The translations under genes and the position numbers were made by a program. Under the pieces are notes generated by a model. It was given only the letters and a program-made list of their open reading frames with translations. It ran no database searches and had not been told where the DNA came from. A DNA stretch of 64,000 nucleotides. Origin: Flavobacterium johnsoniae (GTDB taxonomy: Bacteria > Bacteroidota > Bacteroidia > Flavobacteriales > Flavobacteriaceae). How positions within the stretch are numbered: position 1 is the stretch's first letter; each line of letters opens with the position of its first letter. Below are positions 12,851 to 33,623 of this stretch, piece after piece. The stretch lies in the NCBI RefSeq assembly GCF_030388325.1, contig NZ_CP103794.1, forward strand, positions 4,898,001-4,962,000, written 5' to 3'.

Positions 12851-12963
12851 AATATAATCAAAAAAAAATATTTTAACCTACAAACTCCATCCTGCTTGCA
12901 AAAGTTGATAAATGATGATCCTGTTCTACAGTATTGCTGAGATATTTTTCTAATTGTTACTAT

Positions 12964-12982
12964 TGTTCAGTTTATATCTAGT
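12964..12982 (+). promoter_or_regulatory. Shared 19-nt motif, copy 1 (GH16 agarase A)
   Basis: TGTTCAGTTTATATCTAGT, 78 bp before the GH16 start codon. Identical copies occur at 23222-23240 and 56931-56949, and a one-mismatch copy occurs on the minus strand at 54676-54694. Each precedes a galactan-locus transcription unit. Confidence 0.65.
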
Positions 12983-13026
12983 CCCGTAAACATTCACTTA
13001 CACCTTGAAAAAGTAAATTGCGGGAC
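12981..13026 (+). promoter_or_regulatory. Leader inverted repeat of GH16 agarase A
   Basis: GTCCCG (12981-12986) pairs with CGGGAC (13021-13026); allowing a wobble, the stem extends to nine pairs. An inner pair CTTAC/GTAA lies within the loop. The hairpin ends 35 bp before the start codon. In the second agarase copy the left arm is GTCCCC, so the stem is weaker there. Confidence 0.35.
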
Positions 13027-13060
13027 CAAAAAAAGATTATAATTATTTAAACAAAGAATA

Positions 13061-14311
13061 ATGAAACTAAAATTAATTGTACTGCTTACTTTATGTATGT
13101 CTCCATTTTTATACTGTCAAGATTGGAATGGTATTCCCGTTCCTGCAAATGCTGGAACAGGAAAAATTTGGAAAATTCAGCCACAGTCTGATGATTTTAA
13201 TTACACCTATAAAGCGTCCACTAATCAAGCAACGATTGGCGGAAAGTGGACTAACTTTTATCACAACACTTGGGATGGTCCAGGGCCTACAAAATGGAGG
13301 TATGAGAATACTACCGTTAGCGGAGGAAATCTGCATGTTTTTGCAACTAGACAGGCAAATGAAACTAAGACTTTTACTGTAGATTGTGATGGAGATAATG
13401 TTGCCGAAAGCTGGACTATGGCGGCTACAAGAGCGGGCTGCATTACATCGAAAACAAGGGTAAAGTACCCTGTATATGTAGAAGCGCGTTTTAAAATCGC
13501 AAATGCAGTTATGGCTTCTGATATTTGGATGCTTAGTCCAGATGACACCCAAGAAATCGATATCCTGGAAGCATACGGCGGAAAAGCAACTAGAAATGAT
13601 TGGCTAGCACAACGTTTGCATTTAAGTCACCATGTATTTATTAGAAGTCCGTTTTTGGATTATCAGCCTACCGATGCCAGCACATGGTACACGGGAGCTA
13701 CAAAAACCTATTGGACAGACAAATGGATTCGTCTTGGTGTGTACTGGGCTAGTCCAACTCGGTTAGAATACTACTTGGATGGTCAATTAGTCAAGGTAAT
13801 GGACAATCTAGATACTGTGAACGGCAAAGACGGAATAGACCCATTAAATTATACCTCAACAGCTACTCCAAGAACTGCCGCTACACGCACGGGACTGGTA
13901 AAAGAAATGGATATCATTATTAATATGGAAGATCAAAACTGGAATGCCTGTAAAGGACGTACTCCTACTGATGAAGAAATTACAAATTTTGACAATCATA
14001 ATTTCAATATCGATTGGATTCGAATTTACAAACCTGTGACCGATCCAAATTTAGGGAAACAAGATGCCAAGATTGAAGAAAAAAAATTGATGCTATTTCC
14101 AAATCCTTTTAAAGATTCTATTCAAATAAATTCAGAAAAAAACATAAGCACTGTCCAAATTTACAGTTTAAGCGGAACTAAATTGTTGGTTGAAAAAATC
14201 AATAATACCAATGCTACTATTGCTACTAAAAACTTAAGCGCTGGAATGTATATTGCAAAAATTAACTGGGAAGATGGCACTACAATTTCCCAAAAGGTCA
14301 TAAAACAATAA
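13061..14311 (+). CDS. GH16 beta-agarase, copy A, secreted by T9SS
   Basis: 416 residues: signal peptide (1-19), GH16 catalytic domain (about 20-335) and a type-A T9SS sorting tail (about 345-416: LFPNPF, SLSGTKL, GMYIAKI). The catalytic signature is EIDILE, with nucleophile Glu165, Asp167 and acid/base Glu170. The flanking DWNGIPVPANAG, SGGNLHVFATR, SPDDTQEIDILEAYGG and HLSHHVFIR strongly resemble Zobellia AgaB-type endo-beta-agarases, so cleavage of beta-1,4 bonds in agarose is expected at the surface or outside the cell. A small insertion with DCDGDN (108-113) is noticeable. The protein is 97% identical (11 differences) to the copy at 23319. A porphyranase role cannot be fully excluded. 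Confidence 0.9.
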   Translation: MKLKLIVLLTLCMSPFLYCQDWNGIPVPANAGTGKIWKIQPQSDDFNYTYKASTNQATIGGKWTNFYHNTWDGPGPTKWRYENTTVSGGNLHVFATRQANETKTFTVDCDGDNVAESWTMAATRAGCITSKTRVKYPVYVEARFKIANAVMASDIWMLSPDDTQEIDILEAYGGKATRNDWLAQRLHLSHHVFIRSPFLDYQPTDASTWYTGATKTYWTDKWIRLGVYWASPTRLEYYLDGQLVKVMDNLDTVNGKDGIDPLNYTSTATPRTAATRTGLVKEMDIIINMEDQNWNACKGRTPTDEEITNFDNHNFNIDWIRIYKPVTDPNLGKQDAKIEEKKLMLFPNPFKDSIQINSEKNISTVQIYSLSGTKLLVEKINNTNATIATKNLSAGMYIAKINWEDGTTISQKVIKQ

Positions 14312-14312
14312 A

Positions 14313-14454: not shown

Positions 14455-15735
14455 TTAGTTTTTATCCTTTTTTATCCGTTCCAATTGCTCTACTGAAAGT
14501 TTTTGCGAAAAATATACTTCTGGTTTCAAAAAGAGATTCGTGTTTTTCATTTTCGGGTCATAGATATCTAAACTTAAATCACAATCAAAACGACCTAGAA
14601 TACTATAGTTTTTATTAGGACCACCCATATCTGTAAAATGACATAATCCCCAACTTATACCACGTCCGTTGCCGTTACTTGTAAAAGCATCGGGTACATA
14701 AGCCCCCGCAGCAGTAGGCAGCAAAGCCGAAACCGAAGCAATATTAAAATTGACTCCATCCTTTGCATATTGGATAGTGTTGCTTTCATTTCCGTTACTT
14801 GTAATCAGGGCAGCAATACCCTCTTTAAAAGGAAACAAAGCGGTTTCGTGACCTGAATTGAATAAAGGATTCAAAGGATGCTTAGTGAATGGTCCCAAAG
14901 GATTATCGGCCATAGCCAAGCCATTCCCAACTAAATAATCAGGCCGATCACCATAAGCCGCCTTAAAATACAAGTAGATTTTACCTTTATACAATAAAGG
15001 ATACGGATCATGAATAGAAAATTGATCCCAAGTCCCTTTATCACCATTTTCGACAATTATTTTATTTGCCGCTATCCATGGGCCATCTGGTGAATCAGAG
15101 TATGAAGCAGTCACAGGACAATGATCTCCTTTTTTTCCGCTGGCTTCCATAAACCCTTGGTAATACAAATAAAATTTTCCTTCCCATTTTAAAATATCAG
15201 GAGTCGCTACTGAGCGCCATCCTACTTGTGGCAGTAAAGGTCTTTCGATTGCCACGCCCTGTTCTTCCCAAGACAAGCCATCTTTACTGGTAGCGTACCA
15301 TATTTCACATAAATCCCAATCGGTTGAGGGAATGTTTTCGGTACTTTCACTAGCTCTACTAGCACCTACAGGAGCTGTTTCTGTATCTCTTTTAGTGTAC
15401 CAAACATAGTATTTTCCATTTTCGAAAATAATTTTGGAAGGGTCACGTCTTGAGATTGTTCCGTCTCCATTATGATAATCAAATCCTTTGAGTTCTGTAT
15501 ATTTAAAACTCGAAAAGAGTTCGTTATCCTCCGGTCTTGGAGTTAAATAATTGTCATACAAACGCTCCATAGCCGCACTCAAAGCTCGGTTTGGTTTGGT
15601 TTGTGGAATATCCCATGGATAACCGACAATCTCTTTTTGCTTCGAACTTCCACAAGAAGTGGCTAAAAATAAAGTAACTAATCCGATAGAAATTGTGGTC
15701 GTAATTCGGTTTTTATTTAAAATAGCTAACATCAT
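14455..15735 (-). CDS. Divergent GH117-family glycoside hydrolase, lipoprotein
   Basis: 426 residues with a lipobox (LATSC, Cys28) and a five-bladed beta-propeller of the GH117 type. The three catalytic landmarks of the 3,6-anhydro-L-galactosidase family are present: RRDPS (Asp98), IHDP (Asp243) and SGHE (His296/Glu297). It also has the repeated [17 protein letters not shown] and GKIYLYFK blade motifs. It differs greatly from the second GH117 in this window (50518-51768), which is the closer match to Zobellia AhgA. I infer a related but distinct substrate, such as a substituted or sulfated anhydrogalactose terminus. It is the last gene of the SSS/FAD/GH2/GH117 operon, 46 bp after the GH2 gene. 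Confidence 0.85.
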   Translation of the reverse strand: MMLAILNKNRITTTISIGLVTLFLATSCGSSKQKEIVGYPWDIPQTKPNRALSAAMERLYDNYLTPRPEDNELFSSFKYTELKGFDYHNGDGTISRRDPSKIIFENGKYYVWYTKRDTETAPVGASRASESTENIPSTDWDLCEIWYATSKDGLSWEEQGVAIERPLLPQVGWRSVATPDILKWEGKFYLYYQGFMEASGKKGDHCPVTASYSDSPDGPWIAANKIIVENGDKGTWDQFSIHDPYPLLYKGKIYLYFKAAYGDRPDYLVGNGLAMADNPLGPFTKHPLNPLFNSGHETALFPFKEGIAALITSNGNESNTIQYAKDGVNFNIASVSALLPTAAGAYVPDAFTSNGNGRGISWGLCHFTDMGGPNKNYSILGRFDCDLSLDIYDPKMKNTNLFLKPEVYFSQKLSVEQLERIKKDKN

Positions 15736-15781
15736 TTGTATTTTATTGAGTTTGTAAACTGTTTAATAGTTTTTGTTTAAA

Positions 15782-17479
15782 TTATTCTTCCCATTCTTTA
15801 TAAAGGGCTTTCAATTGTGCATACGCTTTCTTTTTCTTTTTTCGAAAAGCATCTACAATTCCCCATTCTCTATAACCCGATGTGGGTGTGCCTTTGTAAT
15901 TACTTCTATAATCATTGTAACTCCATAGCGATACACCCGAAATCCAAGGAAATTGTTTTAATTCCTTGATATAAGTCACCAATTCTTTACGCAGTTCCGA
16001 ATTGGGTTCATTACCAATCTGGCTTAATCCAATTTCAGAAACAAAAATGGGTTTGCCTTGGAATTTTTCATGTGTTTTTTGCGCCAATACGGGAGCATTT
16101 CCATAGCTATTCATCGAAATAAAATCGACTTTTTCGTAAGGTTCGGTGCCAATTTCTCCCTTACGATAAGACGTAATGGTAACATAGGTTTTGAGGCGGG
16201 TAGTATCTAAACTAGCCACATAATCGAGCATCTCATTTACATAATCGTATTGGTCTTTAGTCAAAGCTTTTTCGTCCCAGTCTGCTACAGCATCCCGTAA
16301 TTCGTTCCCCACACTCCAAGCCACCACTGAGGGATGATTAAAATCTCTTTCGATCATATCGGCCATCCATTTTTTGGTTACTGGATTATTTGGAAACGAT
16401 TGAGGGTCATCATCGCCCCAAACCGGAATTTCTTCAACTAATAGAAAACCATTTTTGTCACAATAATCCAAAAGGTTTTTGGACAAAGGCGCATGCATCA
16501 ATCTCGAGAACGTACAACCTAAAGACTGAATGTCTTTCATGTCTTTTTTAATCAATCCATCTGGCTCGGTATTGCCGTATTTAGGATGGTCGTGTACCCG
16601 ATTGACTCCATTCATACGTACCGCTTGATTGTTCAAATAAAACTGTTCGCCACGAACTTCAAACTTTCGAATACCAAAATTATCTTCGGTAACATCCATT
16701 TTTTTTCCCTCTACTTGCAGTTCGCTCGTCAATTGGTACAAATTAGGACTATCAAAATGCCAAAATTTAAAATCAGCTAGTTTGCGTTTGAATTTTATTT
16801 CAGCAATAGCGGTTGCATTTCGGTTTATTTTTACCGAAACAGGAGCTACATCAATCCCTTTAATTTTGGGTAGAATTTGAGCTGTGGCACTATTGGTACC
16901 ATTATTTTCCACCTTGTATTTTATAGAAAAATTGATTTCTCCTTTTTCAAAATCAGGTATGGATGCAATATGTTGGTAAACGAAACGCAAATCTTCAGTA
17001 GCTACCAACCACACCTCACGGCTAATACCGCCCCAAGCCCACCAAGCGCCTCGTTTGTAAGAGTTATCAGCCATGACAATAATCGAATTGCTTTCGCCTA
17101 GTTTTAGAAAAGGAGCGATGTTAAATTCAAAAGGCAAATAGCCTCCAACATGTTTACCTAGTAATTTCCCGTTGACCCAAACCATAGCGGTTTCATAAAC
17201 AGCTTCAAACTGAACTCTGATTTGTTTTCCTTGCCATTTTTGAGGAACTCTAAAGTCTTTTTGATAATAGCCTTTGCCCACATAAGTTGCATATTTTTCG
17301 TGAGTATCCCAATTCCCCGGTACTTGCATAGTATCCCAATTAGAAAAATCCGATTGCAACAATTCTGATTCAGAAAGACTATTCGAAGCCTTAAACTTCC
17401 ATTTTCCATTTAATGAAATTGTTTGGGCATTAGAAACTATAAAGCCTAAAAATACCAGTATAATTAATTTTGTTTTCAT
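15782..17479 (-). CDS. GH2 exo-beta-glycosidase, short form
   Basis: 565 residues with a signal peptide (about 1-18), a GH2 sugar-binding jelly roll (to about 165), an Ig-like domain (about 170-270) and a TIM barrel. Acid/base Glu393 is in SVGNEL and the nucleophile Glu482 in FVSEIG. Its length and architecture resemble beta-glucuronidases and compact beta-galactosidases. In this setting a beta-galactosidase acting on agar- or carrageenan-type oligosaccharides is likely, but a uronic-acid specificity is not ruled out. It is periplasmic by its signal. It is co-oriented with, and lies between, the FAD oxidoreductase (109 bp upstream) and the divergent GH117. Confidence 0.87.
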   Translation of the reverse strand: MKTKLIILVFLGFIVSNAQTISLNGKWKFKASNSLSESELLQSDFSNWDTMQVPGNWDTHEKYATYVGKGYYQKDFRVPQKWQGKQIRVQFEAVYETAMVWVNGKLLGKHVGGYLPFEFNIAPFLKLGESNSIIVMADNSYKRGAWWAWGGISREVWLVATEDLRFVYQHIASIPDFEKGEINFSIKYKVENNGTNSATAQILPKIKGIDVAPVSVKINRNATAIAEIKFKRKLADFKFWHFDSPNLYQLTSELQVEGKKMDVTEDNFGIRKFEVRGEQFYLNNQAVRMNGVNRVHDHPKYGNTEPDGLIKKDMKDIQSLGCTFSRLMHAPLSKNLLDYCDKNGFLLVEEIPVWGDDDPQSFPNNPVTKKWMADMIERDFNHPSVVAWSVGNELRDAVADWDEKALTKDQYDYVNEMLDYVASLDTTRLKTYVTITSYRKGEIGTEPYEKVDFISMNSYGNAPVLAQKTHEKFQGKPIFVSEIGLSQIGNEPNSELRKELVTYIKELKQFPWISGVSLWSYNDYRSNYKGTPTSGYREWGIVDAFRKKKKKAYAQLKALYKEWEE

Positions 17480-17588
17480 ATTTTCAATATTTACGCCTGT
17501 TTATTTCCGACCAATAGCTTCCTCTATTCTTTGTTTCTTTCTAGTTTTAAAATAAAAGACTGACTTATTCTATCCCTACTATCAATGG

Positions 17589-19868
17589 TTATTGGCAAAA
17601 AATTTCAAAAACAGCTACAGGCACATTTGAATGGCTTTGTTCCAATTCGATGCTAAATCCTTTGGTTGTTATTTTTGAATCGAAAGTCCAAGTATTAATT
17701 GCTTGACAATTGTTTTTTTTTTCGAATAAAACTTTTCCACTCCTGTCTTTGATGGTGTAATTCTGCACACAAAACGGAACCACTTCTTCGGGATGTCCCA
17801 TTAAGGTCGATTCCATGGGGTGGTCGTAATCAGGGTCTAAGAATAGTTTTATTTCAGAAAGTGCTACTTCGGTTTCCCATTCCACTTTTAGCGTTGGTTT
17901 GGTATCAGTAAGATCAGCCAACCAAGCATTGGCACTGCCATAAGGACGTACAAAACCATTGGTTAGATTTTCTACTCCAAAACACGCTATGGTTGGTTCG
18001 ATTTGCATGGCAATATTCTGTCCTTTGGGTCTGCGAAACGGAATCCAAAATTCAAAAGCATCAATTCCGATGTTGTCAGGAGGCGTTTGTTTTCCGTTAT
18101 TATTTACCGCTTTATTTTGTCCGTTGAAGACCGAAAGAACTCCTGTATATCGTTTTGTACTGCTTTGAATACTCAGTTTGTCATTGGATAAAAAAGTAAC
18201 AAAAGCATACTGATTTTCAGTCGTGGCTGTTTTAAATTCAAAAGCTACTTCTTGTTCGCCCGGGTTAATTTTTATTTCTATCGTTTCTAAAATAATATCA
18301 GGCGTGTAATTTCTGGCTTTGGACGAAGTACGCAATTGTACTGTTAGCATGGTAGCTTCTTGCGCTTTTACTTTTACTTTAAAGCCATAGTTTTGATGGG
18401 CTTTGAAAGGCAATAATTGAGCAACCGCCACTTCTAGAGATGTATATTCACCGTCAAAATCTATTTGGTTTAATTTTAAAGTAGAAGAAGCTTGGATGGT
18501 TGCTTGTTTCAATAAATTTTGAGTTTTATCAATGGCTATCCCTGGAATGCTTTGCCCATTGATGCTCAAGGTTTGTTGCAATTCTTTTAGATTATCAGAA
18601 ATTAGCAATTGGGCTGGTTTCAAATTATTTTTCACACATTGTGCCGCTCCGTATCCAACAGCCTGTGCGGCATGAGCACAAGTTGCCATGACACGAGTCG
18701 AACCAAAAGCTACGTGAGTAGCGCTAATGATACGTCCGGAAAGAAATAAATTCTCTATATTTTGACTTATCATGGTGCGTAGCGGAATCTGATATACCCC
18801 TTTAGAATGGTATTGGGTACAACCCGGACGGCTGTCATAGACCCCATCCGAAGGATGTAAATCGACTGCCCAGCCTCCAAAAGACACCGCATCCTCAAAC
18901 GTATTTTGTTCGATTAGATCTTGTTGTTTGATCATATAATGTCCCTCAAAACGGCGGCTTTCTCGTTTACCAGGAATCGTTCCAACCCACTCCAACGTTA
19001 GATTTGCAGCATCAGGAAATTCACCCGAGTTTTTGATGTAATCCCAAACTCCATAAACTACTTTCCATAGTTCCCATTTGATGTCTTCAGATTCGTGAAT
19101 GGTATCTTTTCGTCCGCCATATTCCAACCACCACAAACGACAACCCGAATCTTTATCACTCAAGCTTTTATATCGTGGAATTTCGGTAATGTCTTTTAAG
19201 GCAAATTCTGGAGCGACATATTTTACTGGTGCTCCCGTATCTTTACTGTAAAAATAAATGGTATGTCCTAGTAATTCACCATAGGATTGGTCAGGAGCAA
19301 ATTTCTCTCCAAATTCTTCCACTTTTTCAGCACCCATTCTAAACGCAGCGCCAGCCTGAAAACCCACAATTCCATCTCCCGAAGCGTCACAAAATAAATT
19401 GGATTTAAGGATATAAGTAGTTGAGTTTTGGCTACAAAAGGCAGTAACTTGACTAATGTTTTTGGTATCCGCTTTTTCTACCTCATAAACTGCGGTGTTT
19501 AATAACAGCGTTAAATTTTTCTCATTCGAAACTTTTTCTAACAAAACCGTATCAAATATAAGTGCATTTCCTTCTTTATTTCGATATAAATTTTCGACTA
19601 AAATCTCATCGATGATACCGCCCTCACGAGCCCAACGGTTGTTGTTTCCCATATGTGAAGTTGCGCCCAAAGTCCACAAACGAACTTCGCTTGAAGCGTT
19701 ACCACCCAAAACAGGTCTATCTTGAACAAGAGTTACAGTTACACCCTCACGGGCAGCTGCAATGGCCGCACAAACACCAGCTAATCCTCCGCCAACAACG
19801 ACTAAATCAGATTGAATTGTAGTAATTTTATTGGATCTTACTTTTGAACTAAAGCTTTCTACTTGCAT
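17589..19868 (-). CDS. FAD-dependent oxidoreductase with C-terminal beta domains
   Basis: 759 residues. No signal peptide is obvious, so it is probably cytoplasmic. A Rossmann FAD-binding motif VVVGGGLAGVCAA (about 24-36) is followed by RPVLGGNASSEVR, as in the FAD_oxidored (PF12831) family. Further family landmarks are DASGDGIVG and SGRIISATHVAFGSTRVM. After about residue 440 the chain turns into beta-rich domains resembling discoidin or carbohydrate-binding folds. The reaction is not established. By context it may oxidise a sugar hydroxyl, which could assist glycosidic cleavage by elimination, or process an unusual galactose derivative. It sits between a sodium:sugar symporter and two glycosidases under LacI control, so a carbohydrate substrate is a reasonable inference. 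Confidence 0.82.
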   Translation of the reverse strand: MQVESFSSKVRSNKITTIQSDLVVVGGGLAGVCAAIAAAREGVTVTLVQDRPVLGGNASSEVRLWTLGATSHMGNNNRWAREGGIIDEILVENLYRNKEGNALIFDTVLLEKVSNEKNLTLLLNTAVYEVEKADTKNISQVTAFCSQNSTTYILKSNLFCDASGDGIVGFQAGAAFRMGAEKVEEFGEKFAPDQSYGELLGHTIYFYSKDTGAPVKYVAPEFALKDITEIPRYKSLSDKDSGCRLWWLEYGGRKDTIHESEDIKWELWKVVYGVWDYIKNSGEFPDAANLTLEWVGTIPGKRESRRFEGHYMIKQQDLIEQNTFEDAVSFGGWAVDLHPSDGVYDSRPGCTQYHSKGVYQIPLRTMISQNIENLFLSGRIISATHVAFGSTRVMATCAHAAQAVGYGAAQCVKNNLKPAQLLISDNLKELQQTLSINGQSIPGIAIDKTQNLLKQATIQASSTLKLNQIDFDGEYTSLEVAVAQLLPFKAHQNYGFKVKVKAQEATMLTVQLRTSSKARNYTPDIILETIEIKINPGEQEVAFEFKTATTENQYAFVTFLSNDKLSIQSSTKRYTGVLSVFNGQNKAVNNNGKQTPPDNIGIDAFEFWIPFRRPKGQNIAMQIEPTIACFGVENLTNGFVRPYGSANAWLADLTDTKPTLKVEWETEVALSEIKLFLDPDYDHPMESTLMGHPEEVVPFCVQNYTIKDRSGKVLFEKKNNCQAINTWTFDSKITTKGFSIELEQSHSNVPVAVFEIFCQ

Positions 19869-19894
19869 TTTTTTCTTAATTAAATCGTATGTAT

Positions 19895-21541
19895 TTATTC
19901 TTTATTTTTATAAACTATGAAGATGCCCAATAAGCAAACTGCTGCTCCCACTCCTACCACGATAGAAATTAAAATAGTAGAAATAAATTCTAATGAAAGT
20001 ATTAAGGCTCCTGTTAAGGCAACTCCAATTCCAATGACTCTTCCCCCTTTTTTATTACTTCCATCCGAATCATCTTCATATACATTTTCACCAATAGCTG
20101 TTTTTTGTACATAAGCTTCATAAGTATCTTGGGATGGATTGGTTTGGATTAAATAGAATTCTGATACCAACATTAATACCATTGGAACAGCAACACCTAG
20201 AATCATTTCGGCACTACGACTCAGGGTTATATCTAGTAATTGTGGAGCTAAAAATTTGAAAAATCCCGTAATCAATAAGGTGATTAAGGTAACCGATAAC
20301 ATACTAGTCCCTGTTTGTTTTTTAGAGAAAATAGTCCACAACGGAGGCAAAAACATGGCTCCTCCTGTTACCGCTGCTAAACTCAAAACAAAATTGACAA
20401 CACCTCCTAAAAGTGGTACAACCAAAGCTACCCCAATGGTAATCAAGCCTAAAACAACGGTAGCCGTTTTCCCCACACGCATCAATTGAGCGTCACTTGC
20501 CTGAGGTTTGAAATGTTTAAAAAGGTCATTGGTAAAAACTCCTGCGGCGATATTTAAAGTGGTATTTACCGAACTAGAAGTGGCAAATATCATCCCAACG
20601 AGCATTAAACCGAGCATTCCCGCTGGTAAAACTTCTTTACACATTAATAAATAAGCACCTTCTGACTCTACTCCATCAAGATTTGGGTTTAGAATGCGGT
20701 AAATCATAGGAGGTAACATCCAAAATAACGGACTTATCACATACAAAGCTCCAAACAACCAGCCCACTTTTTGAGCGTCTTTGGGTGTGGCAACAGAGGT
20801 GTAACGTTGTACATAAGCCCAGTTTCCGGCCAAAAAAAATAAATTATAAAGTCCAAAAGCAATTATAAAAGCAATAGAATATTCTTCGTTTACCAAATTG
20901 AAAAAAGCATCAGGCGAAAGTTCTATGAATTGGCCTACTCCTCCAATTTTATCAAAAGCCAATGGAACTATGATTATGACAACGGCTGTTAAAACCACAA
21001 ACTGCAACACATCGGTAACGATAACTGCCCAAAGTCCTCCCACGGCGGTATAGATTAAAATTAAGATCCCTAAACTGATGATGCTGGTATAAATAGGAAT
21101 CCCTGTAGAAACCTCTACAATCTTGGCCACAGGGTATAAAAATGCTCCTGTGGTAAATAATGAAGTCAGTAGAAATAAATAGGTATATGTTTTTTGAATT
21201 TTAAAACCATAACGATTGGTTATGTATTCGGCTACGGTTAGCGAATTTGTTTTACGCCATTTGGGAGCAATAAAAAAACCTATAAGGATACCTGCAATAG
21301 CCATAGTCCATTGAATACTTACAGCTACCCAACCACTTTTGTACGCTATAGAACCCCAAACAACAAAGGTTCCTGCCGAGAAAAAACTCATGAATAAAGA
21401 CAACCCACTCATCCACCAAGGCAAGGCGCCTCCAGCAGCAAAATAGGATTTCATGTTTTTTCCTGTTTTAGAAAAAGCCAAACCGCAAACAAAAATGAGT
21501 GCAGAAAAAATCAGAATCACCCAAATATCAATGTTTTTCAT
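19895..21541 (-). CDS. Sodium:solute symporter (SSS family)
   Basis: 548 residues with about 13-14 membrane helices. SSS features include the early FAAGGALPWWMSGLSLFMSF segment, VAEYITNRYG, and a helix with YTAVGGLWAVIVTDVLQF. It lies in the inner membrane and imports a sugar or sugar acid with sodium. It is the first gene of a four-gene minus-strand operon, 26 bp before the FAD oxidoreductase, and faces a LacI regulator across a 284-bp spacer that holds two operators. Its cargo is most likely the mono- or disaccharide handled by the FAD oxidoreductase, GH2 and GH117 enzymes. Confidence 0.9.
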   Translation of the reverse strand: MKNIDIWVILIFSALIFVCGLAFSKTGKNMKSYFAAGGALPWWMSGLSLFMSFFSAGTFVVWGSIAYKSGWVAVSIQWTMAIAGILIGFFIAPKWRKTNSLTVAEYITNRYGFKIQKTYTYLFLLTSLFTTGAFLYPVAKIVEVSTGIPIYTSIISLGILILIYTAVGGLWAVIVTDVLQFVVLTAVVIIIVPLAFDKIGGVGQFIELSPDAFFNLVNEEYSIAFIIAFGLYNLFFLAGNWAYVQRYTSVATPKDAQKVGWLFGALYVISPLFWMLPPMIYRILNPNLDGVESEGAYLLMCKEVLPAGMLGLMLVGMIFATSSSVNTTLNIAAGVFTNDLFKHFKPQASDAQLMRVGKTATVVLGLITIGVALVVPLLGGVVNFVLSLAAVTGGAMFLPPLWTIFSKKQTGTSMLSVTLITLLITGFFKFLAPQLLDITLSRSAEMILGVAVPMVLMLVSEFYLIQTNPSQDTYEAYVQKTAIGENVYEDDSDGSNKKGGRVIGIGVALTGALILSLEFISTILISIVVGVGAAVCLLGIFIVYKNKE

Positions 21542-21707
21542 ATAAGTAAATTTGTTTTTTAGTGGTCATTGATAAAATCGCTTTTTAACCAATTTTATTT
21601 GCATATGCAAAGCTTTCTTAAAAGGCGATTTCATAACCTTTTTTTAATTTTTATTAAAAGTAAGAATTGAATAAATGGAATTAAATTATATTTTTTACAA
21701 ACCCTAC

Positions 21708-21754
21708 CGAGAACGTTACCGAAGCTTGTTAAATCTTTCGAGAACGTTACCGAA
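21708..21754. promoter_or_regulatory. Paired LacI-type operators
   Basis: CGAGAACGTTACCGAA occurs twice, at 21708-21723 and 21739-21754, in the same orientation with centres 31 bp apart (about three helical turns). Each is an imperfect palindrome around AACGTT, the core typical of LacI-family sites. They lie between the SSS operon and the divergent lacI-type gene and could bind that regulator as two dimers. Confidence 0.75.
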
Positions 21755-21825
21755 AATTATTGTACTTTTATAACCTATTAATCATTTTCATTTGTAAAAT
21801 AATCTTTTCAAGTTGTTTAATTCGC

Positions 21826-22851
21826 ATGAAATATATTACCATCAAAGACATTGCTAAACAATTGAACACTTCAGTTTCTACGGTTTCAAGAGCCTTCAAC
21901 GACAAGGCTGATATCAATCCTGAAACCAAAGCATTGGTTTTAAAAACGGCCAAAGCATTAGGATATCGTCCTAATCCTATTGCTAAAAAGTTAATGCAAC
22001 AGCGTTCTTTTACTATTGGTATTATTGTACCTGAGTTTATCAATGCATTTTTTCCTGAGGTCATCATAGGGGTTCAAGAAATTTTGTTTGAAAATGGATA
22101 TCAAGTGCTAATTGCTCAGTCTAGCGAATGTTTTGAAACTGAATTAAAAAATATCAAAACCTTAGAAGATAGCATGGTTGATGGCTTGATTGTTTCATTA
22201 TCAAGTGAAAGCAATAATACCGATTATTATCAAAATTTAATTGCGTCGGGCTTTCCAATCGTGCTTTTCAATAGGGTAAACAATCAACTCAATTGTTCTA
22301 AAGTTGTTTTTAACGATTACAAATGGGCCTTTTTTGCCACCGAGCATTTGATTAATCAAGGTTGCAAGAATATTGTACATCTCAAAGGTAGGGATGGCGT
22401 TTCATTGACAAATGAGCGTCTAAGAGGGTTTTTAGACGCTCACCAAAAATACCAATTGAGCTATAATAAAAATCAAATTGTAGCTACGGGATTCACATTA
22501 GCCGATGGTCAAAAAGCGGCGCAAAATATAATAGACTCAGGAAATATTCCTGACGCTATCTTTGGAGCAAATGATCCGGTAACTATTGGAGCCATGCAAG
22601 TTTTTAAGAAAAATGGATTTTCTATACCAAATGACATTGCTTTTGTTGGTTTTACCGATTCACAAATGGCAACTATAATTGAGCCTCCACTGACTTCTGT
22701 TTCGCAACCTGCAAGGGAAATTGGTGAAGAAGCTGCTAAAATACTTATTGAACAAATTGAAACAAAGAAAGGTTTCCAGCCTAAAAGCATTACCTTAAAT
22801 GGGCAATTAAATATACGTGCTTCTTCTCTAAAAATCACTTCATTGAAGTGA
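21826..22851 (+). CDS. LacI-family transcriptional regulator
   Basis: 341 residues from the ATG at 21826. A TTG at 21760 in the same frame would add a hydrophobic leader foreign to the family. The N-terminal HTH reads ITIKDIAKQLNTSVSTVSRAFND with the hinge helix GYRPNPIAKKL. The rest is a periplasmic-binding-protein fold for a sugar effector, with IGIIVPEF, GLIVSLSSE, GANDPVTIGAM and PPLTSVSQPAREIGEEAA. It probably represses or activates the divergent SSS/FAD/GH2/GH117 operon and itself through the two AACGTT sites just upstream. The effector is unknown. Confidence 0.93.
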   Translation: MKYITIKDIAKQLNTSVSTVSRAFNDKADINPETKALVLKTAKALGYRPNPIAKKLMQQRSFTIGIIVPEFINAFFPEVIIGVQEILFENGYQVLIAQSSECFETELKNIKTLEDSMVDGLIVSLSSESNNTDYYQNLIASGFPIVLFNRVNNQLNCSKVVFNDYKWAFFATEHLINQGCKNIVHLKGRDGVSLTNERLRGFLDAHQKYQLSYNKNQIVATGFTLADGQKAAQNIIDSGNIPDAIFGANDPVTIGAMQVFKKNGFSIPNDIAFVGFTDSQMATIIEPPLTSVSQPAREIGEEAAKILIEQIETKKGFQPKSITLNGQLNIRASSLKITSLK

Positions 22852-23318
22852 CGAAAGTCATTTTATAAATTTTAGCAATGTGATAAATTATTAGCTATTA
22901 AATATTTTGCATGAAGAAGCTGGAGCTATTCTTGATCCAATTGTTTTTAACATTATTTCTGCAATTATTTCTTTCATAAAAACAACAACTTGCCTATACC
23001 GTCAAATCTTCAGTACTTCATCACTATTGCGACAACTAATTTTTTTAATCTTATTATATTACATTAAAAGTATAGGTGTTTAGAATACTATTGATTTTAA
23101 ATAAAGACTTATTATAAGCTACTAACTCTAAAGATATAAAATTCCTCTATGGCAAGGTAACCAGTAGCAATCCAGTTTTACACTGAAAACCTTTAATTCA
23201 TTTTGTACAAATTATTCCTATTGTTCAGTTTATATCTAGTCCCCTAAACATTGACCTACACTTTGAAAAAGTAAATTGCGGGACCAAAAAAAGATTATAA
23301 TTATTTAAACAAAGAATA
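22852..23318. other. Intergenic region before GH16 agarase B, 467 bp
   Basis: No convincing gene. It contains a short peptide-like stretch near 22908-23080, which is probably chance or a faint remnant. Its last 100 bp are duplicated from the region before the first agarase copy, including the 19-nt motif at 23222-23240. Confidence 0.5.
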
Positions 23319-24568
23319 ATGAAACTAAAATTAATTGTACTGCTTACTTTATGTATGTCTCCGTTTTTATACAGTCAAGATTGGAATGGCATTCCCGTTC
23401 CTGCAAATGCTGGAACAGGAAAAATTTGGAAAATTCAGCCACAGTCTGATGATTTTAATTACACCTATGAAGCGTCCACTAATCAAGCAACGATTGGCGG
23501 AAAGTGGACTAACTTTTATCACAACACTTGGGATGGTCCAGGGCCTACAAAATGGAGGTATGAGAATACTACCGTTAGCGGAGGAAATCTGCATGTTTTT
23601 GCAACTAGACAGGCAAATGAAACTAAGACTTTTACTGTAGATTGTGATGGAGATAATATTGCCGAAAGCTGGACTATGGCGGCTACAAGAGCGGGCTGCA
23701 TTACATCGAAAACAAGGGTAAAGTACCCTGTATATGTAGAAGCGCGTTTTAAAATCGCAAATGCAGTTATGGCTTCTGATATTTGGATGCTTAGTCCAGA
23801 TGACACCCAAGAAATCGATATCCTGGAAGCATACGGCGGAAAAGCAACTAGAAATGATTGGCTAGCACAACGTTTGCATTTAAGTCACCATGTATTTATT
23901 AGAAGTCCGTTTTTGGATTATCAGCCTACCGATGCCAGCACATGGTACACGGGAGCTACAAAAACCTATTGGACAGACAAATGGATTCGTCTTGGTGTGT
24001 ACTGGGCTAGTCCAACTCGGTTAGAATACTACTTGGATGGTCAATTAGTCAAGGTAATGGACAATCTAGATACTGTGAACGGCAAAGACGGAATAGACCC
24101 ATTAAACTATACCTCAACAGCTACTCCAAGAACTGCCGCTACACGCACGGGACTGGTAAAAGAAATGGATATCATTATTAATATGGAAGATCAAAACTGG
24201 AATGCCTGTAAAGGACGTACTCCTACTGATGAAGAAATTACAAATTTTGACAATCATAATTTCAATATCGATTGGATTCGAATTTACAAACCTGTGACCG
24301 ATCCAAATTTAGGGAAACAAGATGCCAAGATTGAAGAAAAAAAATTGATGCTATTTCCAAATCCTTTTAAAGATTCTATTCAAGTAAAATCAGAAAAAAA
24401 CATAAGCACTGTTCAAATTTACAGTTTGAGCGGAACTAAATTGTTGGTTGAAAAAATCAATAATACCAATGCTACTATTGCTACCAAAAACTTAAGCGCT
24501 GGAATGTATTTTGCACAAATCAATTGGGAAGATGGCACTACTGTTACTCAAAAAATTATTAAAGAATA
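23219..24568 (+). repeat. Long direct repeat, right copy
   Basis: Near-identical to 12961-14310 and in the same orientation. The two copies bracket the SSS/FAD/GH2/GH117/LacI cassette. Confidence 0.9.
23222..23240 (+). promoter_or_regulatory. Shared 19-nt motif, copy 2 (GH16 agarase B)
   Basis: TGTTCAGTTTATATCTAGT, identical to copy 1 and at the same distance (78 bp) from the start codon. Since this is part of the duplicated block, its independent support comes from copies 3 and 4. Confidence 0.65.
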
Positions 24569-24569
24569 A
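23319..24569 (+). CDS. GH16 beta-agarase, copy B, secreted by T9SS
   Basis: 416 residues with the same layout as the first copy: signal peptide, GH16 domain with EIDILE (Glu165, Asp167, Glu170) and a T9SS tail. Differences from copy A are Ser19, Glu51 and Ile113, and then eight changes after residue 355, mostly in the sorting tail (for example GMYFAQI against GMYIAKI). Enzymatic properties should therefore be almost the same, with surface or secreted endo-agarase activity. The CRTAC1-like lipoprotein gene begins 1 bp after this stop codon, so the gene heads a five-gene plus-strand operon that ends with KDG kinase and KDPG aldolase. Confidence 0.9.
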   Translation: MKLKLIVLLTLCMSPFLYSQDWNGIPVPANAGTGKIWKIQPQSDDFNYTYEASTNQATIGGKWTNFYHNTWDGPGPTKWRYENTTVSGGNLHVFATRQANETKTFTVDCDGDNIAESWTMAATRAGCITSKTRVKYPVYVEARFKIANAVMASDIWMLSPDDTQEIDILEAYGGKATRNDWLAQRLHLSHHVFIRSPFLDYQPTDASTWYTGATKTYWTDKWIRLGVYWASPTRLEYYLDGQLVKVMDNLDTVNGKDGIDPLNYTSTATPRTAATRTGLVKEMDIIINMEDQNWNACKGRTPTDEEITNFDNHNFNIDWIRIYKPVTDPNLGKQDAKIEEKKLMLFPNPFKDSIQVKSEKNISTVQIYSLSGTKLLVEKINNTNATIATKNLSAGMYFAQINWEDGTTVTQKIIKE

Positions 24570-24570
24570 A

Positions 24571-28096: not shown

Positions 28097-29119
28097 ATGA
28101 CAAAAATAGTCACTTTCGGTGAAATTTTACTGCGTCTTTCAACGGAAAGACATTTAAGGTTCTCACAAGCAGAATCGTATAAAGCTACTTATGGCGGTGG
28201 AGAATTTAATGTTTCTGTATCTCTGGCAAATTATGGTCTGAATACAGAATATATTACACGATTACCAAATAATGAATTAGGTAATTGTGCACTAAAAGAG
28301 ATGAGAAAACTTAATGTCGGCTGTCAGAATGTGCTCTTGGATGGTGATCGAATTGGGATTTATTTTCTAGAAACAGGAACTAGTACAAGAGCCAGTAATA
28401 TTGTTTACGATCGCGAAAATAGTGGAATGTCAACTTTAAAAAAAGGAATGATTGACTGGAAAGAAATTCTAAAAGATGCCACTTGGTTTCACTGGAGTGG
28501 CATTACTCCTTCCCTATCTGAAAGTGCCGCTGAGGCTTGTGTTGAGGCTTTGGAAATTGCAAAAGATATGGGCTTAACAATTTCTTGTGATTTAAACTAC
28601 AGATCAAAACTTTGGAAATATGGTAAACATCCAAAAGAAGTTATGCCTAAAATTCTGCAATATTGCAACGTAATTTTAGGAGATCTAGACACTGCAAATT
28701 TCATGCTGGGCCTACCACAAATGAATCCGGATTATCAAAATCAGGAATCACTGCCCGTGCTGTATGATACCATTTTTAAACTAATTCCGTCGTTAAAATT
28801 TATGGCAACCACATTGCGCTATTCTGTAAGTGCTTCTCATCAACGTATAGGAGGAATTTTATACGATGGAAATACAATTTATGATGCAGACGTTCAAGAT
28901 GTAACTCCGGTTGTAGATCGTGTTGGAAGTGGTGATGCTTTTATGGGAGGCTTAATTTATGGATTAAATGAAGAACCACTAAACAAACAAAGAGCCCTTA
29001 ATTTTGCTGTAGCAGCCTGCTGTCTGAAACATACTATTGCAGGCGACTATAACTTAGTAACACTTGAAGAAGTTGAAAAATTAATTGGAGGTGATTTTAC
29101 AGGAAAAGTATCAAGATAA
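28097..29119 (+). CDS. kdgK: 2-keto-3-deoxygluconate kinase (PfkB family)
   Basis: 340 residues, a cytoplasmic PfkB sugar kinase. It has TYGGGEFNVSVSLANYG near the N-terminus, SCDLNYRSKLW in the middle, and the ATP/anion-hole motif DRVGSGDAFMGG, with catalytic Asp280. It should phosphorylate 2-keto-3-deoxy-D-gluconate (KDG) to KDPG. In agar degraders KDG is the end product of 3,6-anhydro-L-galactose conversion, and the aldolase that uses KDPG is the next gene, 7 bp on. KDG kinases of alginate or pectin pathways are similar, so the substrate rests partly on context. Confidence 0.9.
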   Translation: MTKIVTFGEILLRLSTERHLRFSQAESYKATYGGGEFNVSVSLANYGLNTEYITRLPNNELGNCALKEMRKLNVGCQNVLLDGDRIGIYFLETGTSTRASNIVYDRENSGMSTLKKGMIDWKEILKDATWFHWSGITPSLSESAAEACVEALEIAKDMGLTISCDLNYRSKLWKYGKHPKEVMPKILQYCNVILGDLDTANFMLGLPQMNPDYQNQESLPVLYDTIFKLIPSLKFMATTLRYSVSASHQRIGGILYDGNTIYDADVQDVTPVVDRVGSGDAFMGGLIYGLNEEPLNKQRALNFAVAACCLKHTIAGDYNLVTLEEVEKLIGGDFTGKVSR

Positions 29120-29126
29120 TATAAAT

Positions 29127-29792
29127 ATGGCACAATATACCCGAATTGAAGTAGCTCAAGCGATGAAAAATACTGGAATGATTCCACTATTTTTCAGTAA
29201 TGATATCGAATTAAGTAAGAATATTTTAAAAGCGTGTTATGATGGTGGTGCACGTTTGCTGGAATTTACAGCTCGTGGCGATTTTGCGCACGAAATTTTT
29301 GGCGAACTTACCAAGTATGCAATTAAAGAATTACCTGGAATGATAATGGGGGTTGGCTCCGTAACCGATGCTGCAGCTGCCTCGTTATACATGCAACTTG
29401 GCGCAAATTTTATTGTAACTCCAGTATTACGTGAGGATATTGTAATAGTTTGTAACCGACGCAAAGTTTTATGGTCTCCTGGGTGCGGAACACTTACAGA
29501 AATAACAAAAGCAGAAGAATTAGGTTGCGAAATCGTTAAACTTTTTCCGGGCGATATTTATGGACCTGAATTTATAAAAGGAATTAAAGGTCCACAACCT
29601 TGGACATCTATTATGCCAACTGGAGGAGTACATCCAACAGCTGAAAATCTGACTTCATGGTTTAACGCTGGAGTAACTTGTGTAGGAATGGGATCCCAAT
29701 TAATAACTAAAGAGATTGTGGCAAATAAAGATTTTAAGGAATTAACTGAAAAAGTTAAAGAAGTTATTGAAATTATTTCGAAGTTAAAATAA
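29127..29792 (+). CDS. eda: KDPG aldolase
   Basis: 221 residues from the ATG at 29127, seven bases after the kinase stop; an earlier in-frame ATG at 29085 lies within the kinase. It is a class I KDPG/KHG aldolase with catalytic Glu46 in LLEFTARGD, Schiff-base Lys138 in EIVKLFPG, and the phosphate-binding MPTGGV. It cleaves KDPG to pyruvate and glyceraldehyde-3-phosphate, closing the anhydrogalactose route whose earlier steps are encoded at 42.2-50.5 kb. It ends the plus-strand operon and is followed by a strong terminator. Confidence 0.93.
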   Translation: MAQYTRIEVAQAMKNTGMIPLFFSNDIELSKNILKACYDGGARLLEFTARGDFAHEIFGELTKYAIKELPGMIMGVGSVTDAAAASLYMQLGANFIVTPVLREDIVIVCNRRKVLWSPGCGTLTEITKAEELGCEIVKLFPGDIYGPEFIKGIKGPQPWTSIMPTGGVHPTAENLTSWFNAGVTCVGMGSQLITKEIVANKDFKELTEKVKEVIEIISKLK

Positions 29793-29901: not shown

Positions 29902-31149
29902 CTAGTCCGCTACAATAGTATCTAACTTTAAAATAGAGGTACTATCAAATAATTTCCATTTATCAATTTTAATTTTCTGCTTAATAGCTTTTGTACCTAA
30001 TACATAAGCCTTGGCATTATTAACCGCATCTACGGACAATAAAGTATCTTCATTAAAGTACCAAACTGAAAAACTATTGGGCTTATCTTCTTTTCTAACC
30101 ACGACCTCGGTATAGCCTTGTGACAGACCAACCATTTGTAATTTGAGATCGTACTGATCCGACCAAAACCATGGAATGGTGTCGTAAACCGAAGCACCTC
30201 CACATATTGCAGCAGCCGCGATTTTGGACTGATCTACGGCATTTTGAACCGATTCTAAACGGATAAAGCGGTTGTAATGCGGGTTAAAATGATACGTACA
30301 ATCACCAATTGCATAAATATTGGCCTCACTGGTTTGCGCCTTTTCATTGACTATTATCCCATTTTCAATTTTGATTCCTGCTTGTTCTGCCAATTCTTTA
30401 TTTACCAAAATACCTACACCCACAATAATCATATCCGCTGGATAACGAGAACCATCGGTACAAACCACTACGTTTGAAGCGTCATTATTTTCAATTGCGC
30501 TTACATTTTTAGCCGTAAGCACTTCTACCCCATTTTGATGATGCAACTCATGAAAAAAACTAGACATTTCTGGAGCAGTCACTCGTGCTAAAATTCGAGA
30601 TTCACGTTCCAATACCACCACCTGAGCACCTAATTTTTTTAAGGAAGCAGCCGTTTCTAGTCCGATATAACCTCCACCAATCACAACAACACGTTTGGTA
30701 GCGCTCGCATTGATGCCCTTTTTGATAGAAGCAACGTGCGCAGCGGTACGCAAAGGAAATACATTTTGAGCAGTTGCTAATCCTTCAATTGGCGGTACAA
30801 TTGGTCTTGCTCCCGTAGCCAAAACCAATTGATCATAAGACTGTTGCGTTCCGTCTTCCAAAGTAATGGTTTGCTCTTTTGCATGTATTGCGACCACCTT
30901 TACCCCCAAATTCAAGGTGATGTCTTCTTTTTGGTAGCTTTCTGCTGATTTTAAAACATTCTTATCAATACCATCATCACTTGTCAAATAGGCCTTAGAC
31001 AAGGGTGGGCGATGGTATGGCAACACAGGATCGGCATCAAAAAGCAATATGTCGCCTTCCCAGCCTTCTTTTCGTATAGCCGTAGCACAATTTACGCCGC
31101 CATGGCTCGCTCCTATAATCACACAAATTGGTTTCTTAGTTTCAGACAT
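29902..31149 (-). CDS. NAD(P)H:ferredoxin reductase for P450
   Basis: 415 residues, a putidaredoxin-reductase-like flavoprotein. It has an FAD motif near the N-terminus (GASHGGVNCATAIRKEGW), HRPPLSKAYL, an NAD(P)-binding VVIGGGYIGLETAASLKKLG, and the second FAD contact NIYAIGDCTYHF. It passes electrons from NAD(P)H to the 2Fe-2S ferredoxin encoded 14 bp upstream, which feeds the P450. The three genes match the three-component 6-O-methyl-D-galactose demethylase known from porphyran-degrading Flavobacteriia. Cytoplasmic. Confidence 0.93.
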   Translation of the reverse strand: MSETKKPICVIIGASHGGVNCATAIRKEGWEGDILLFDADPVLPYHRPPLSKAYLTSDDGIDKNVLKSAESYQKEDITLNLGVKVVAIHAKEQTITLEDGTQQSYDQLVLATGARPIVPPIEGLATAQNVFPLRTAAHVASIKKGINASATKRVVVIGGGYIGLETAASLKKLGAQVVVLERESRILARVTAPEMSSFFHELHHQNGVEVLTAKNVSAIENNDASNVVVCTDGSRYPADMIIVGVGILVNKELAEQAGIKIENGIIVNEKAQTSEANIYAIGDCTYHFNPHYNRFIRLESVQNAVDQSKIAAAAICGGASVYDTIPWFWSDQYDLKLQMVGLSQGYTEVVVRKEDKPNSFSVWYFNEDTLLSVDAVNNAKAYVLGTKAIKQKIKIDKWKLFDSTSILKLDTIVAD

Positions 31150-31163
31150 ACAACATTTTTTAA

Positions 31164-31472
31164 TTATTTAGCCACACGAAGCACTACTCCGTCCAACGCT
31201 TCGGTAATTTCTAATTGACAACACAAACGGCTGAATTCATCCGCATCATCATCTAATTCTAGCATATCCGTTTCAATTTCGCTAGCGGTTCCCGTTTTTG
31301 AAACATGTTCTGGTAAAACATGTACGTGACAAGTAGCACACGAACATACCCCTCCGCAATCACCATCGATTCCTTTGATACCATTGTCAACTGCAAGTGC
31401 CATTACGCTACCCGATGTTCCTTCTAAAGTTATTGTTTCATCATCGCTAGTGATAAAAGTTATTTTTGCCAT
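31164..31472 (-). CDS. 2Fe-2S ferredoxin, adrenodoxin type
   Basis: 102 residues. Cluster ligands follow the vertebrate/bacterial P450 ferredoxin pattern: Cys39, Cys45 and Cys48 in DCGGVCSCATC and Cys85 in RLCCQL. An acidic patch (residues 65-79, rich in Glu/Asp) is typical for docking to reductase and P450. It is the electron shuttle of the demethylase system, encoded between the P450 (17 bp upstream) and the reductase. Confidence 0.94.
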   Translation of the reverse strand: MAKITFITSDDETITLEGTSGSVMALAVDNGIKGIDGDCGGVCSCATCHVHVLPEHVSKTGTASEIETDMLELDDDADEFSRLCCQLEITEALDGVVLRVAK

Positions 31473-31489
31473 TTTCTTTATTTTTTTAA

Positions 31490-32641
31490 TTAATTAAATT
31501 TTACTTGTAAGCGGTGAAAGCCAACTTTACGTTTGAAATCACCTAAATCTTCGATATTTTCTTCGGCACTCACAATTTCCATAGTGCTCACTTTTTCCGT
31601 TAATACTTCCACCGCTATTTTCATAATTGTACGAGCGTGGGTTGCTCCCAAACAGTTGTGTGTCCCGAATCCGAAGCTCAAATGCGGGTTCATTTTACGA
31701 TCTAAAACCACTTCATTTGGATTTTCAAAAACAGTGGCATCTCGATTTGCAGACGCCCAACACAAAGAAGCTCTTGTATCTGCTTTTATAGCATGTTCAC
31801 AAACAGCAGAATCAGTTTTGGCTACTCTTCCCATCTGAGTTAATGGCGCAAAATAGCGAATCAACTCTTCAATAGCTTTGTTTCTTATTTCGGGTTCTAC
31901 ACGCAAACGATCTAATGACTTTGGGTGCTCTGCAAAATAAGCAATGGAATTTGACACCGCATTGATTACCGTATCACGGCCACCTGCAAACGTCAAAATC
32001 ATCACGCCTTTCACTTCTTCTTTTGTTAATTTTTTGCCATCAACTACAGCATTCAGTAATACTGAATACAAATCTTCTCCATTCTTGGCAATGGCTTCAT
32101 CAATTCGGCCATCGATATAATCATACAAAATAGCCGCTTTAGCACCATCTAAGGCTTCTCCTTCACTACGAAAAACGTGAGTTCCCCATGAAATCCATAA
32201 GTCAGCTTCTTCATAAGGCGTATTTAGTAATAAAGTCAAGGCTCTTGACTGTAGTTTTAATGAAAATTCACTGATTACATCTACCGAATCTTTGGCTAAA
32301 ACCTCATCAACTAAAGCACTAATTTGCTCTTTTAATTTGGCTTGGTATTCTTCCTCTAAAGGTCTTTTGAACCAAGGATCCAAAATAGCTCTAAAGTCTT
32401 TATGTTGCGGCGGATCTACTTCAAACGGAATCTGACGTGTTGTTCTGATGTTCACTTCTGAAGGAATCACAATACGACCTGGTACCGCCCCTGATTGAAA
32501 GGTTTTCCAGTCGTGAGCTCCTTTGCGCACATCTTTGTGACGCAATAGCATGGTTACAGGATCATTTTGATCGTCCATTTCTCCAAAACCTTGGTTTACA
32601 CGTGCTTCTTCAAATGGATCGTTAAACTCACTATTTTTCAT
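31490..32641 (-). CDS. Cytochrome P450, probable 6-O-methyl-D-galactose demethylase
   Basis: 383 residues, a soluble bacterial class I P450. The I-helix has the oxygen-activating AGGRDT, the ExxR pair is in EELIR, and the heme loop is FGFGTHNCLG with Cys330 as axial ligand. With its own ferredoxin and reductase beside it in an agar/porphyran locus, it fits the family shown in Formosa and Zobellia to oxidise 6-O-methyl-D-galactose to galactose and formaldehyde. Substrate identity here is by context and family resemblance. A 176-bp spacer separates it from the esterase gene upstream, so it may have its own promoter. Confidence 0.9.
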   Translation of the reverse strand: MKNSEFNDPFEEARVNQGFGEMDDQNDPVTMLLRHKDVRKGAHDWKTFQSGAVPGRIVIPSEVNIRTTRQIPFEVDPPQHKDFRAILDPWFKRPLEEEYQAKLKEQISALVDEVLAKDSVDVISEFSLKLQSRALTLLLNTPYEEADLWISWGTHVFRSEGEALDGAKAAILYDYIDGRIDEAIAKNGEDLYSVLLNAVVDGKKLTKEEVKGVMILTFAGGRDTVINAVSNSIAYFAEHPKSLDRLRVEPEIRNKAIEELIRYFAPLTQMGRVAKTDSAVCEHAIKADTRASLCWASANRDATVFENPNEVVLDRKMNPHLSFGFGTHNCLGATHARTIMKIAVEVLTEKVSTMEIVSAEENIEDLGDFKRKVGFHRLQVKFN

Positions 32642-32817
32642 CTTTTATATTTTTATTAGTATCTTTTTTTTCAACCTGGTACGTTTTAAATGCTGATGAC
32701 AACACACCTACAACGTCTCGAAAAAGACCTTGCAGGAACATTAACTAACATTATTTATTAGTACTAAACTTTTCATACTGATCATTAAACTCAGCTTCTT
32801 AAGTCTATTTTCAGTTT

Positions 32818-33615: not shown

Positions 33616-33623
33616 TTCTAAAA

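Follow-up and report, generated by a model that had tools for sequence, protein, structure and literature searches.

Several described systems resemble in part a five-gene cassette that lies in a 64,000-nucleotide stretch of Flavobacterium johnsoniae DNA (positions 4898001-4962000 of a 5.32-Mb single-contig genome; hereafter, the window) and that encodes a GH117 protein, a GH2 protein, a flavin adenine dinucleotide (FAD)-binding oxidoreductase, a sodium/solute symporter (SSS), and a LacI-family regulator. Ahg943 of Gayadomonas, a GH117 protein outside the AhgA group, frees 3,6-anhydro-L-galactose (L-AHG). The beta-galactosidases ZgGH2_7 and SsGH2_7 resemble the GH2 protein by description, being Bacteroidota GH2s with signal peptides encoded in loci with GH117; both are slow on pNP-beta-galactoside, and a natural substrate was not found for them (PMC12243196). 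GH117 co-occurs with GH29, GH95, GH43, GH2, GH31, and GH97 in loci predicted to act on sulfated polysaccharides that contain fucose, a gene set much like that seen around the cassette (PMC6298971). A figure legend on carrageenan loci abbreviates a "fumarate reductase/succinate dehydrogenase" that, judging from the label, may correspond to the FAD protein, and the legend gives no reaction for it (PMC5698469). A redox step in galactoside breakdown is also part of the LacABC system with DUF1080; however, that system is a periplasmic, three-part dehydrogenase, whereas the FAD protein of the window belongs to PF12831, lacks an export signal, and has its own symporter (PMC9007349).

The component parts of the cassette are known families. 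No description of the unit, of its operator pair, or of its spread beyond agar users was found in searches of Creative Commons-licensed PubMed Central papers. No established reaction for the FAD family turned up in the papers searched either, in agreement with an earlier note made from the DNA alone.

A conserved module with a symporter-flavin enzyme core

The five neighboring genes are a real, conserved bacterial module, arranged as follows.

14455-15735, minus strand: GH117 gene; 426 aa, probable lipoprotein (LATSC lipobox, by eye)
15782-17479, minus strand: GH2 gene; compact protein of 565 aa with signal-type N terminus and Pfam GH2 domains
17589-19868, minus strand: FAD_oxidored gene; 759 aa, probably cytoplasmic, C-terminal beta-rich region of ~320 aa
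19895-21541, minus strand: SSS-family sodium/solute symporter gene; 548 aa, PF00474 at 141 bits
21708-21721: operator 1, CGAGAACGTTACCG, 14 bp, in the LacI/SSS divergent gap
21739-21752: operator 2, identical to operator 1 (CGAGAACGTTACCG), 31 bp from operator 1
21760-22851, plus strand: LacI-family regulator gene; helix-turn-helix (HTH) at 43.7 bits plus periplasmic-binding domains

The earlier note had described four same-strand genes facing a LacI gene with twin operators. The open reading frames (ORFs) and operators were found at these places, and its view of the cassette as one regulated unit was supported. Intergenic gaps inside the four-gene run are 46, 109, and 26 bp. The TTG start of the LacI ORF is doubtful, and an ATG at 21826, giving 341 aa, is likelier. 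The regulator belongs to the LacI family by PF00356 (HTH), PF13377, and further periplasmic-binding families in Pfam, and the symporter passed both PF00474 (SSF) and TIGR00813 (185.9 bits versus a cutoff of 184).

The paired sites were the sole exact matches of the searched operator pattern in the whole genome. Allowing one mismatch added four further places, three of them inside reading frames and the fourth (440846) between genes that look unrelated. A reversed control pattern had 29 genome matches, and single operator-like sites thus mean little. Pairing was a recurrent feature: 18 divergent LacI/SSS gaps were present among 145 loci examined, the window included, and every one of them contained at least two operator-type sites, with two sites 30 to 31 bp apart in each; shuffled gaps (simple dinucleotide-block shuffle) contained 0.04 sites per gap. 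Because the consensus was written after 17 of the 18 gaps had been seen, and because several gaps are near-copies (those of the window, L059, L142, and L143, and also several Aquimarina gaps), the pairing shows conservation and is no independent test. The same sites were present in the gaps of L043, L045, and L048, loci in which no GH117 was seen, and the regulator therefore appears to belong to the SSS-FAD core. The window LacI has full-length similarity to the LacI-family sugar repressors RbsR, CytR, and CcpA and shares CG-centered palindromic operators with them, but it differs in having two operators 30 to 31 bp apart in a divergent gap. It scored 222.6 bits against the RbsR model, below the cutoff of 382, and no equivalog model exceeded its cutoff.

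In order to view conservation from the GH117 side, contigs were scanned with a 25-protein GH117 alignment, the best 80 of 432 loci were taken, and neighbors were sought by tblastn. The genome survey of four-gene order that the earlier note had proposed showed the order to be conserved. The exact LacI/SSS/FAD/GH2/GH117 layout, with LacI divergent, was found in 8 of the 80 loci: L059 (near-identical, from Flavobacterium fluviatile), L067, L068, L071, L072, L073 (Aquimarina), L075 (Cyclobacteriaceae), and L076. Five more loci, L063 among them, had SSS and FAD genes without the window-type GH2. The FAD protein was present at >50% identity over >500 aa in 14 of the 80 loci, 13 of which also had the SSS gene. 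Alteromonad loci had a different gene order, SSS-GH117-FAD in L089, L091, and L093 and SSS-GH117-GH117-FAD in L082.

Of the 28 loci in the clade of the window GH117, 18 had a FAD-family ORF by profile search (E ≤ 1e-20), versus 1 of the 52 others (Fisher P = 6e-10, relatedness ignored); several of the clade's loci lie on short contigs, with neighbors out of view. Presence or absence of the FAD gene tracks the GH117 tree, and the 18 loci are spread over 11 of 18 groups, which were assigned from record titles at genus rank or above. Two of them carry a different, distant FAD_oxidored relative with 29 to 30% identity (L064:7070-8872 and L060:660-2453). Because these stand beside the same GH117 clade, it is possible that different flavin enzymes replace each other.

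Searches that began from the FAD protein found full-length relatives (≥54% identity) in 20 of the 299 genomes sampled from the bacterium's own family; by E value alone, matches were found in 8 of 299 genus genomes and 6 of 395 phylum genomes, own genome included each time. The protein was commoner in two other Bacteroidota families, with 86 of 180 (family f10) and 22 of 176 (family f4) sampled genomes positive, 108 in total. In 43 f10 and f4 loci, tblastn (E ≤ 1e-15) found no relatives of the window's GH117 or GH16 proteins. These results argue that the FAD enzyme is no galactan specialist, contrary to the suggestion in the earlier note.

Among 28 FAD-driven loci, SSS was found in 23, LacI in 11, window-type GH2 in 10, and window-type GH117 in 6. 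These were combined with 20 f10 loci (from 86 matching genomes), 19 f4 loci (from 23 places), and 6 GH117-driven loci into a set of 73, whose neighbor families were defined by single linkage. The most frequent neighbors were SSS (61 loci), GH2 (44), LacI (24), an unnamed 842-aa family (23), and SusC-like proteins (22), followed by an unnamed 947-aa family (15), GH97 (14), GH117 (12), and a GH43-like family (11). In all 61 SSS-bearing loci the symporter gene was on the FAD strand and at most three ORFs away, and in 37 it was directly adjacent. The f10 loci (n = 22) had SSS in 22, GH2 in 21, and the 842-aa family in 19, usually in the order 842-aa, SSS, GH2, FAD. In a quick tree of the 73 FAD proteins, GH117 accompanied 12 of the 30 rows on one side and none of the 43 rows in the other half. 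Thus, SSS and FAD make up the core, which GH2 usually accompanies; GH117 supplements it on one side of the FAD tree.

No downstream sugar enzyme recurred in at least four loci among the neighbor families named. The sole hint of a downstream route was at L146:48-1816, where a PfkB kinase and a class II aldolase directly precede SSS-FAD. The 842-aa family (for example, L166:16291-18816, with 22 other loci) had no Pfam match over cutoff and is weakly similar to the alpha/alpha-barrel families GH88, GH76, and GH127. The 947-aa family (L053:15134-17974 and 14 other loci) occurs in 12 of 21 f4 FAD loci, and the member scanned had no Pfam match. Beside the SSS-FAD core at L052:4205-7140 and L055:1340-4245 is a FAD_oxidored paralogue that has a signal; after it comes a 372-aa protein in which a flavinylation-like motif is present (in L055, DAVAGATIT). 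An ApbE-type family, of which one member was scanned, precedes FAD in 7 of the 22 f10 loci.

Sequence features and likely compartments

The FAD protein matches PF12831 at 311 bits (cutoff, 27) over residues 21 to 434, covering profile positions 1 to 416 of 416, and is thus a member of this family. No GMC (AA3) family was among its seven Pfam families at E ≤ 0.001. No solved sequence relative was found beyond the dinucleotide-binding stretch. No full-length sequence match to solved FrdA, SdhA, or flavocytochrome c was found, and flavocytochrome c and fumarate reductase chains align only over ~40 dinucleotide-binding residues; fumarate-reductase-type names are carried by relatives from Formosa agariphila, Pseudalgibacter, and Polaribacter in some sources. 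Full-length members share the motifs SHMGNNNRW, GKRESRR, DLHP, and ATHVAFGS, each with minor variants, and the C-terminal region has subthreshold similarity to carbohydrate-binding families.

An AlphaFold2 model of the FAD protein (48-row alignment) had a mean pLDDT of 86.4 and a pTM of 0.89; stretches of low confidence at residues 58 to 62, 241 to 243, and 299 to 303 fall in conserved parts. Structure comparison indicated the general FAD fold common to lipoamide dehydrogenases, thiazole synthase, geranylgeranyl reductases, flavin monooxygenases, and FrdA. The top Foldseek row was FrdA (6b58_C; E = 5.7e-11) but with a template score (TMt) of 0.27, and many families were tied; TMt was ≤0.47 among the matches listed, and geranylgeranyl reductases recurred among the 50 listed. 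The fold comparison does not choose a reaction.

The window GH117 is labeled by Pfam as GH43 only (44 bits). However, several sources name its homologues GH117, and it matches the solved chains 4u6d (E = 2.1e-180) and 4u6b (E = 9.1e-169) over nearly its whole length, which supports full-length membership; the remaining solved GH117 chains gave only 4e-57 to 5e-62. The chains 4u6d and 4u6b are Zobellia Zg3615/ZgAhgB and Zg3597. By motif, D98, H296, and E297 are the counterparts of the Asp, His, and Glu that were proposed as catalytic residues of Ahg943. The window protein shares the family and these residues with Ahg943 and the two Zobellia proteins but differs in having its own clade, the one tied to the FAD gene. 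In a tree of 95 rows this clade has 29 rows (support, 97/95) and joins a 12-row 4u6b clade as a 41-row group (95/75, branch not starred), with 4u6d elsewhere. Thus, of the earlier description of a GH117 set apart but catalytically intact, the catalytic part stood, and the isolation did not, given the almost full-length matches to solved relatives. It is possible that the protein releases L-AHG, as its family would predict. The window also encodes, at 50518-51768, an AhgA-type GH117 (3p2n, 3.5e-211); these two were the only GH117s in the genome at E ≤ 1e-10 and are 42% identical over the matched part.

The window GH2 exceeded the cutoffs of PF02837, PF00703, and PF02836, and E393 (in GNE) together with the Glu in FVSE forms its predicted catalytic pair. 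It carries a W..NDY...R.WG signature characteristic of FAD-linked GH2s and absent from the window's two other GH2s. In the GH2 neighborhood cluster, W-x-x-[NS]-D-Y was present in 51 of 52 proteins, with R-x-W-G also behind it in 50 of 52. An NxK pair is described as marking hexuronidases (PMC12243196). At that position the window GH2 presumably has R-x-W, as judged by eye against the Escherichia coli enzyme.

Export signals were read by eye on the N termini. GH117 has its lipobox and GH2 its signal-type N terminus, but the FAD protein has a short polar N terminus followed by the dinucleotide fold, and no export signal was seen in the full-length rows shown. The flavin step therefore most likely follows uptake. 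The earlier idea that the FAD enzyme assists glycosidic cleavage does not fit this arrangement, as FAD enzyme and hydrolases should not meet in this organism. In the four alteromonad loci the GH117 protein, encoded between SSS and FAD, has no export signal, starts almost directly with the catalytic region, and looks cytoplasmic. Uptake should thus precede GH117 there, and this layout fits uptake of a di- or oligosaccharide, which SSS may carry. In Bacteroidota loci, import of a product by SSS is enough.

Proposed role and alternatives

The reading we favor, to which we give an even chance, is that of a self-contained catabolic module controlled by a single local repressor. The GH117 lipoprotein and GH2 would work outside the inner membrane, stripping red-algal galactan oligosaccharides of their terminal alpha- and beta-linked galactose-type sugars. 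A trimming product would then enter with sodium through the SSS symporter. In the cytoplasm, the FAD enzyme would perform a two-electron oxidation of the imported saccharide, most likely at a ring hydroxyl or the anomeric carbon, and the oxidized saccharide would join general sugar metabolism. As long as neither the imported sugar nor its product is present, LacI on the paired operators would silence the SSS-FAD-GH2-GH117 run. The firmest part of this proposal is that the flavin enzyme acts on the cargo of SSS, and the least firm is the chemistry of the flavin step. Since this core is also found where GH117 is missing, SSS probably carries a common galactose-type sugar or a small galactoside, and not 3,6-anhydrogalactose itself; the modified galactan disaccharide suggested in the earlier note is possible.

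Several observations weigh against this proposal. FAD, SSS, and window-type GH2 were all unseen in 59 of the 80 GH117 loci, and SSS was unseen at the cutoff in 5 of the 28 FAD-driven loci, in one of which (L144) FAD lies near a contig end and SSS is possibly out of view. GH117 is scattered over the FAD tree, its label needing 8 changes over 73 rows, which indicates that GH117 comes and goes. The four alteromonad loci with a seemingly cytoplasmic GH117 indicate that partitioning of the module is not uniform across hosts. Fold matches mix reductases and monooxygenases with dehydrogenases, and "oxidation" is thus a default reading rather than a finding.

The alternatives are taken in falling order of probability. 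The first, although unlikely, is that GH117 frees L-AHG, or a methylated form, which SSS imports and the FAD enzyme oxidizes to the acid. The enzyme would then be the flavin equivalent of the NAD-linked AHG dehydrogenase, and its product would feed a seeming KDG kinase and aldolase encoded at 28097-29792. The release of L-AHG by Ahg943, the strong link between the GH117 clade and FAD, and the presence in the window of what seem by eye to be the usual AHG genes, in addition to the AhgA-type GH117, are all consistent with this route. However, the FAD protein occurs in the 108 f10 and f4 genomes, whose 43 loci lacked window-type GH117 and GH16 relatives, and the window already seems to encode an aldehyde dehydrogenase/cycloisomerase pair for AHG.

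It is also rather unlikely that SSS and FAD are a general sugar-handling pair beside agar genes that shares no substrate with GH117. The scatter of GH117 over the FAD tree and its presence in only 6 of the 28 FAD-driven loci would be expected in that case, but its clade's enrichment in FAD ORFs (18 of 28 versus 1 of 52) would not, nor would the four-gene order that Flavobacteriaceae and Cyclobacteriaceae share, or the SSS-GH117-FAD runs of Alteromonadaceae.

LacA is a flavoprotein, and oxidation by the FAD enzyme at C3 of an imported glycoside, followed by cleavage through elimination or a 3-ketoglycoside hydrolase, is a further though improbable route. Cleavage of 3-keto glycosides has precedent in LacABC with DUF1080, for which such a route in the periplasm is proposed (PMC9007349), and the C-terminal similarity of the FAD protein to carbohydrate-binding families is in keeping with it. 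The lack of a GMC family match and of an export signal argue against this route, as does the failure to find DUF1080 in 30 neighbor proteins scanned, a part of all neighbors. It is more doubtful still that the enzyme reduces an unsaturated or keto sugar intermediate, in the manner of fumarate or geranylgeranyl reductase; both appear among the Foldseek matches, but the template scores are low with many families tied, and no gene forming an unsaturated sugar was recognized among the recurrent neighbors named.

GH4 and GH109 are NAD-using glycosidase families, and a flavin counterpart of these, an intracellular enzyme that cleaves glycosides by transient flavin oxidation of the sugar ring (oxidize, eliminate, hydrate, reduce), is the least probable reading, a long shot that would nonetheless explain the core of a symporter and one flavin enzyme, the lack of a recurrent downstream sugar enzyme among the neighbor families named, and the beta-rich tail. 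If true, SSS-FAD would be a new, widespread route for galactoside use in Bacteroidota.

Proteins repeatedly annotated as "FAD-dependent oxidoreductase" or "fumarate reductase" can now be placed in a defined unit of transporter, flavin enzyme, one GH2 type, and, in part of the loci, a dedicated repressor. Identifying its sugar would fill a gap in the use of galactose-rich polysaccharides by marine and other Bacteroidota and might supply a natural substrate for a GH2 type and GH117 clades that lack one.

Surroundings of the cassette

The cassette is bracketed by two direct repeats that are 97.8% identical, each with a GH16 gene whose product has a T9SS tail.

12952-14312, plus strand: left copy of the 1361-bp direct repeat, beta-agarase-like GH16 gene inside
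23210-24570, plus strand: right copy of the 1361-bp direct repeat, beta-agarase-like GH16 gene inside

Recombination between the copies could remove the cassette. Positions 29902-34739 contain genes that, by eye, seem to encode a P450, a ferredoxin, a ferredoxin reductase, an esterase, and an alcohol dehydrogenase. Sets of this kind are known to demethylate 6-O-methyl-galactose. Relatives of the window P450 were present in the GH117 loci L094, L106, L108, L120, and L132.

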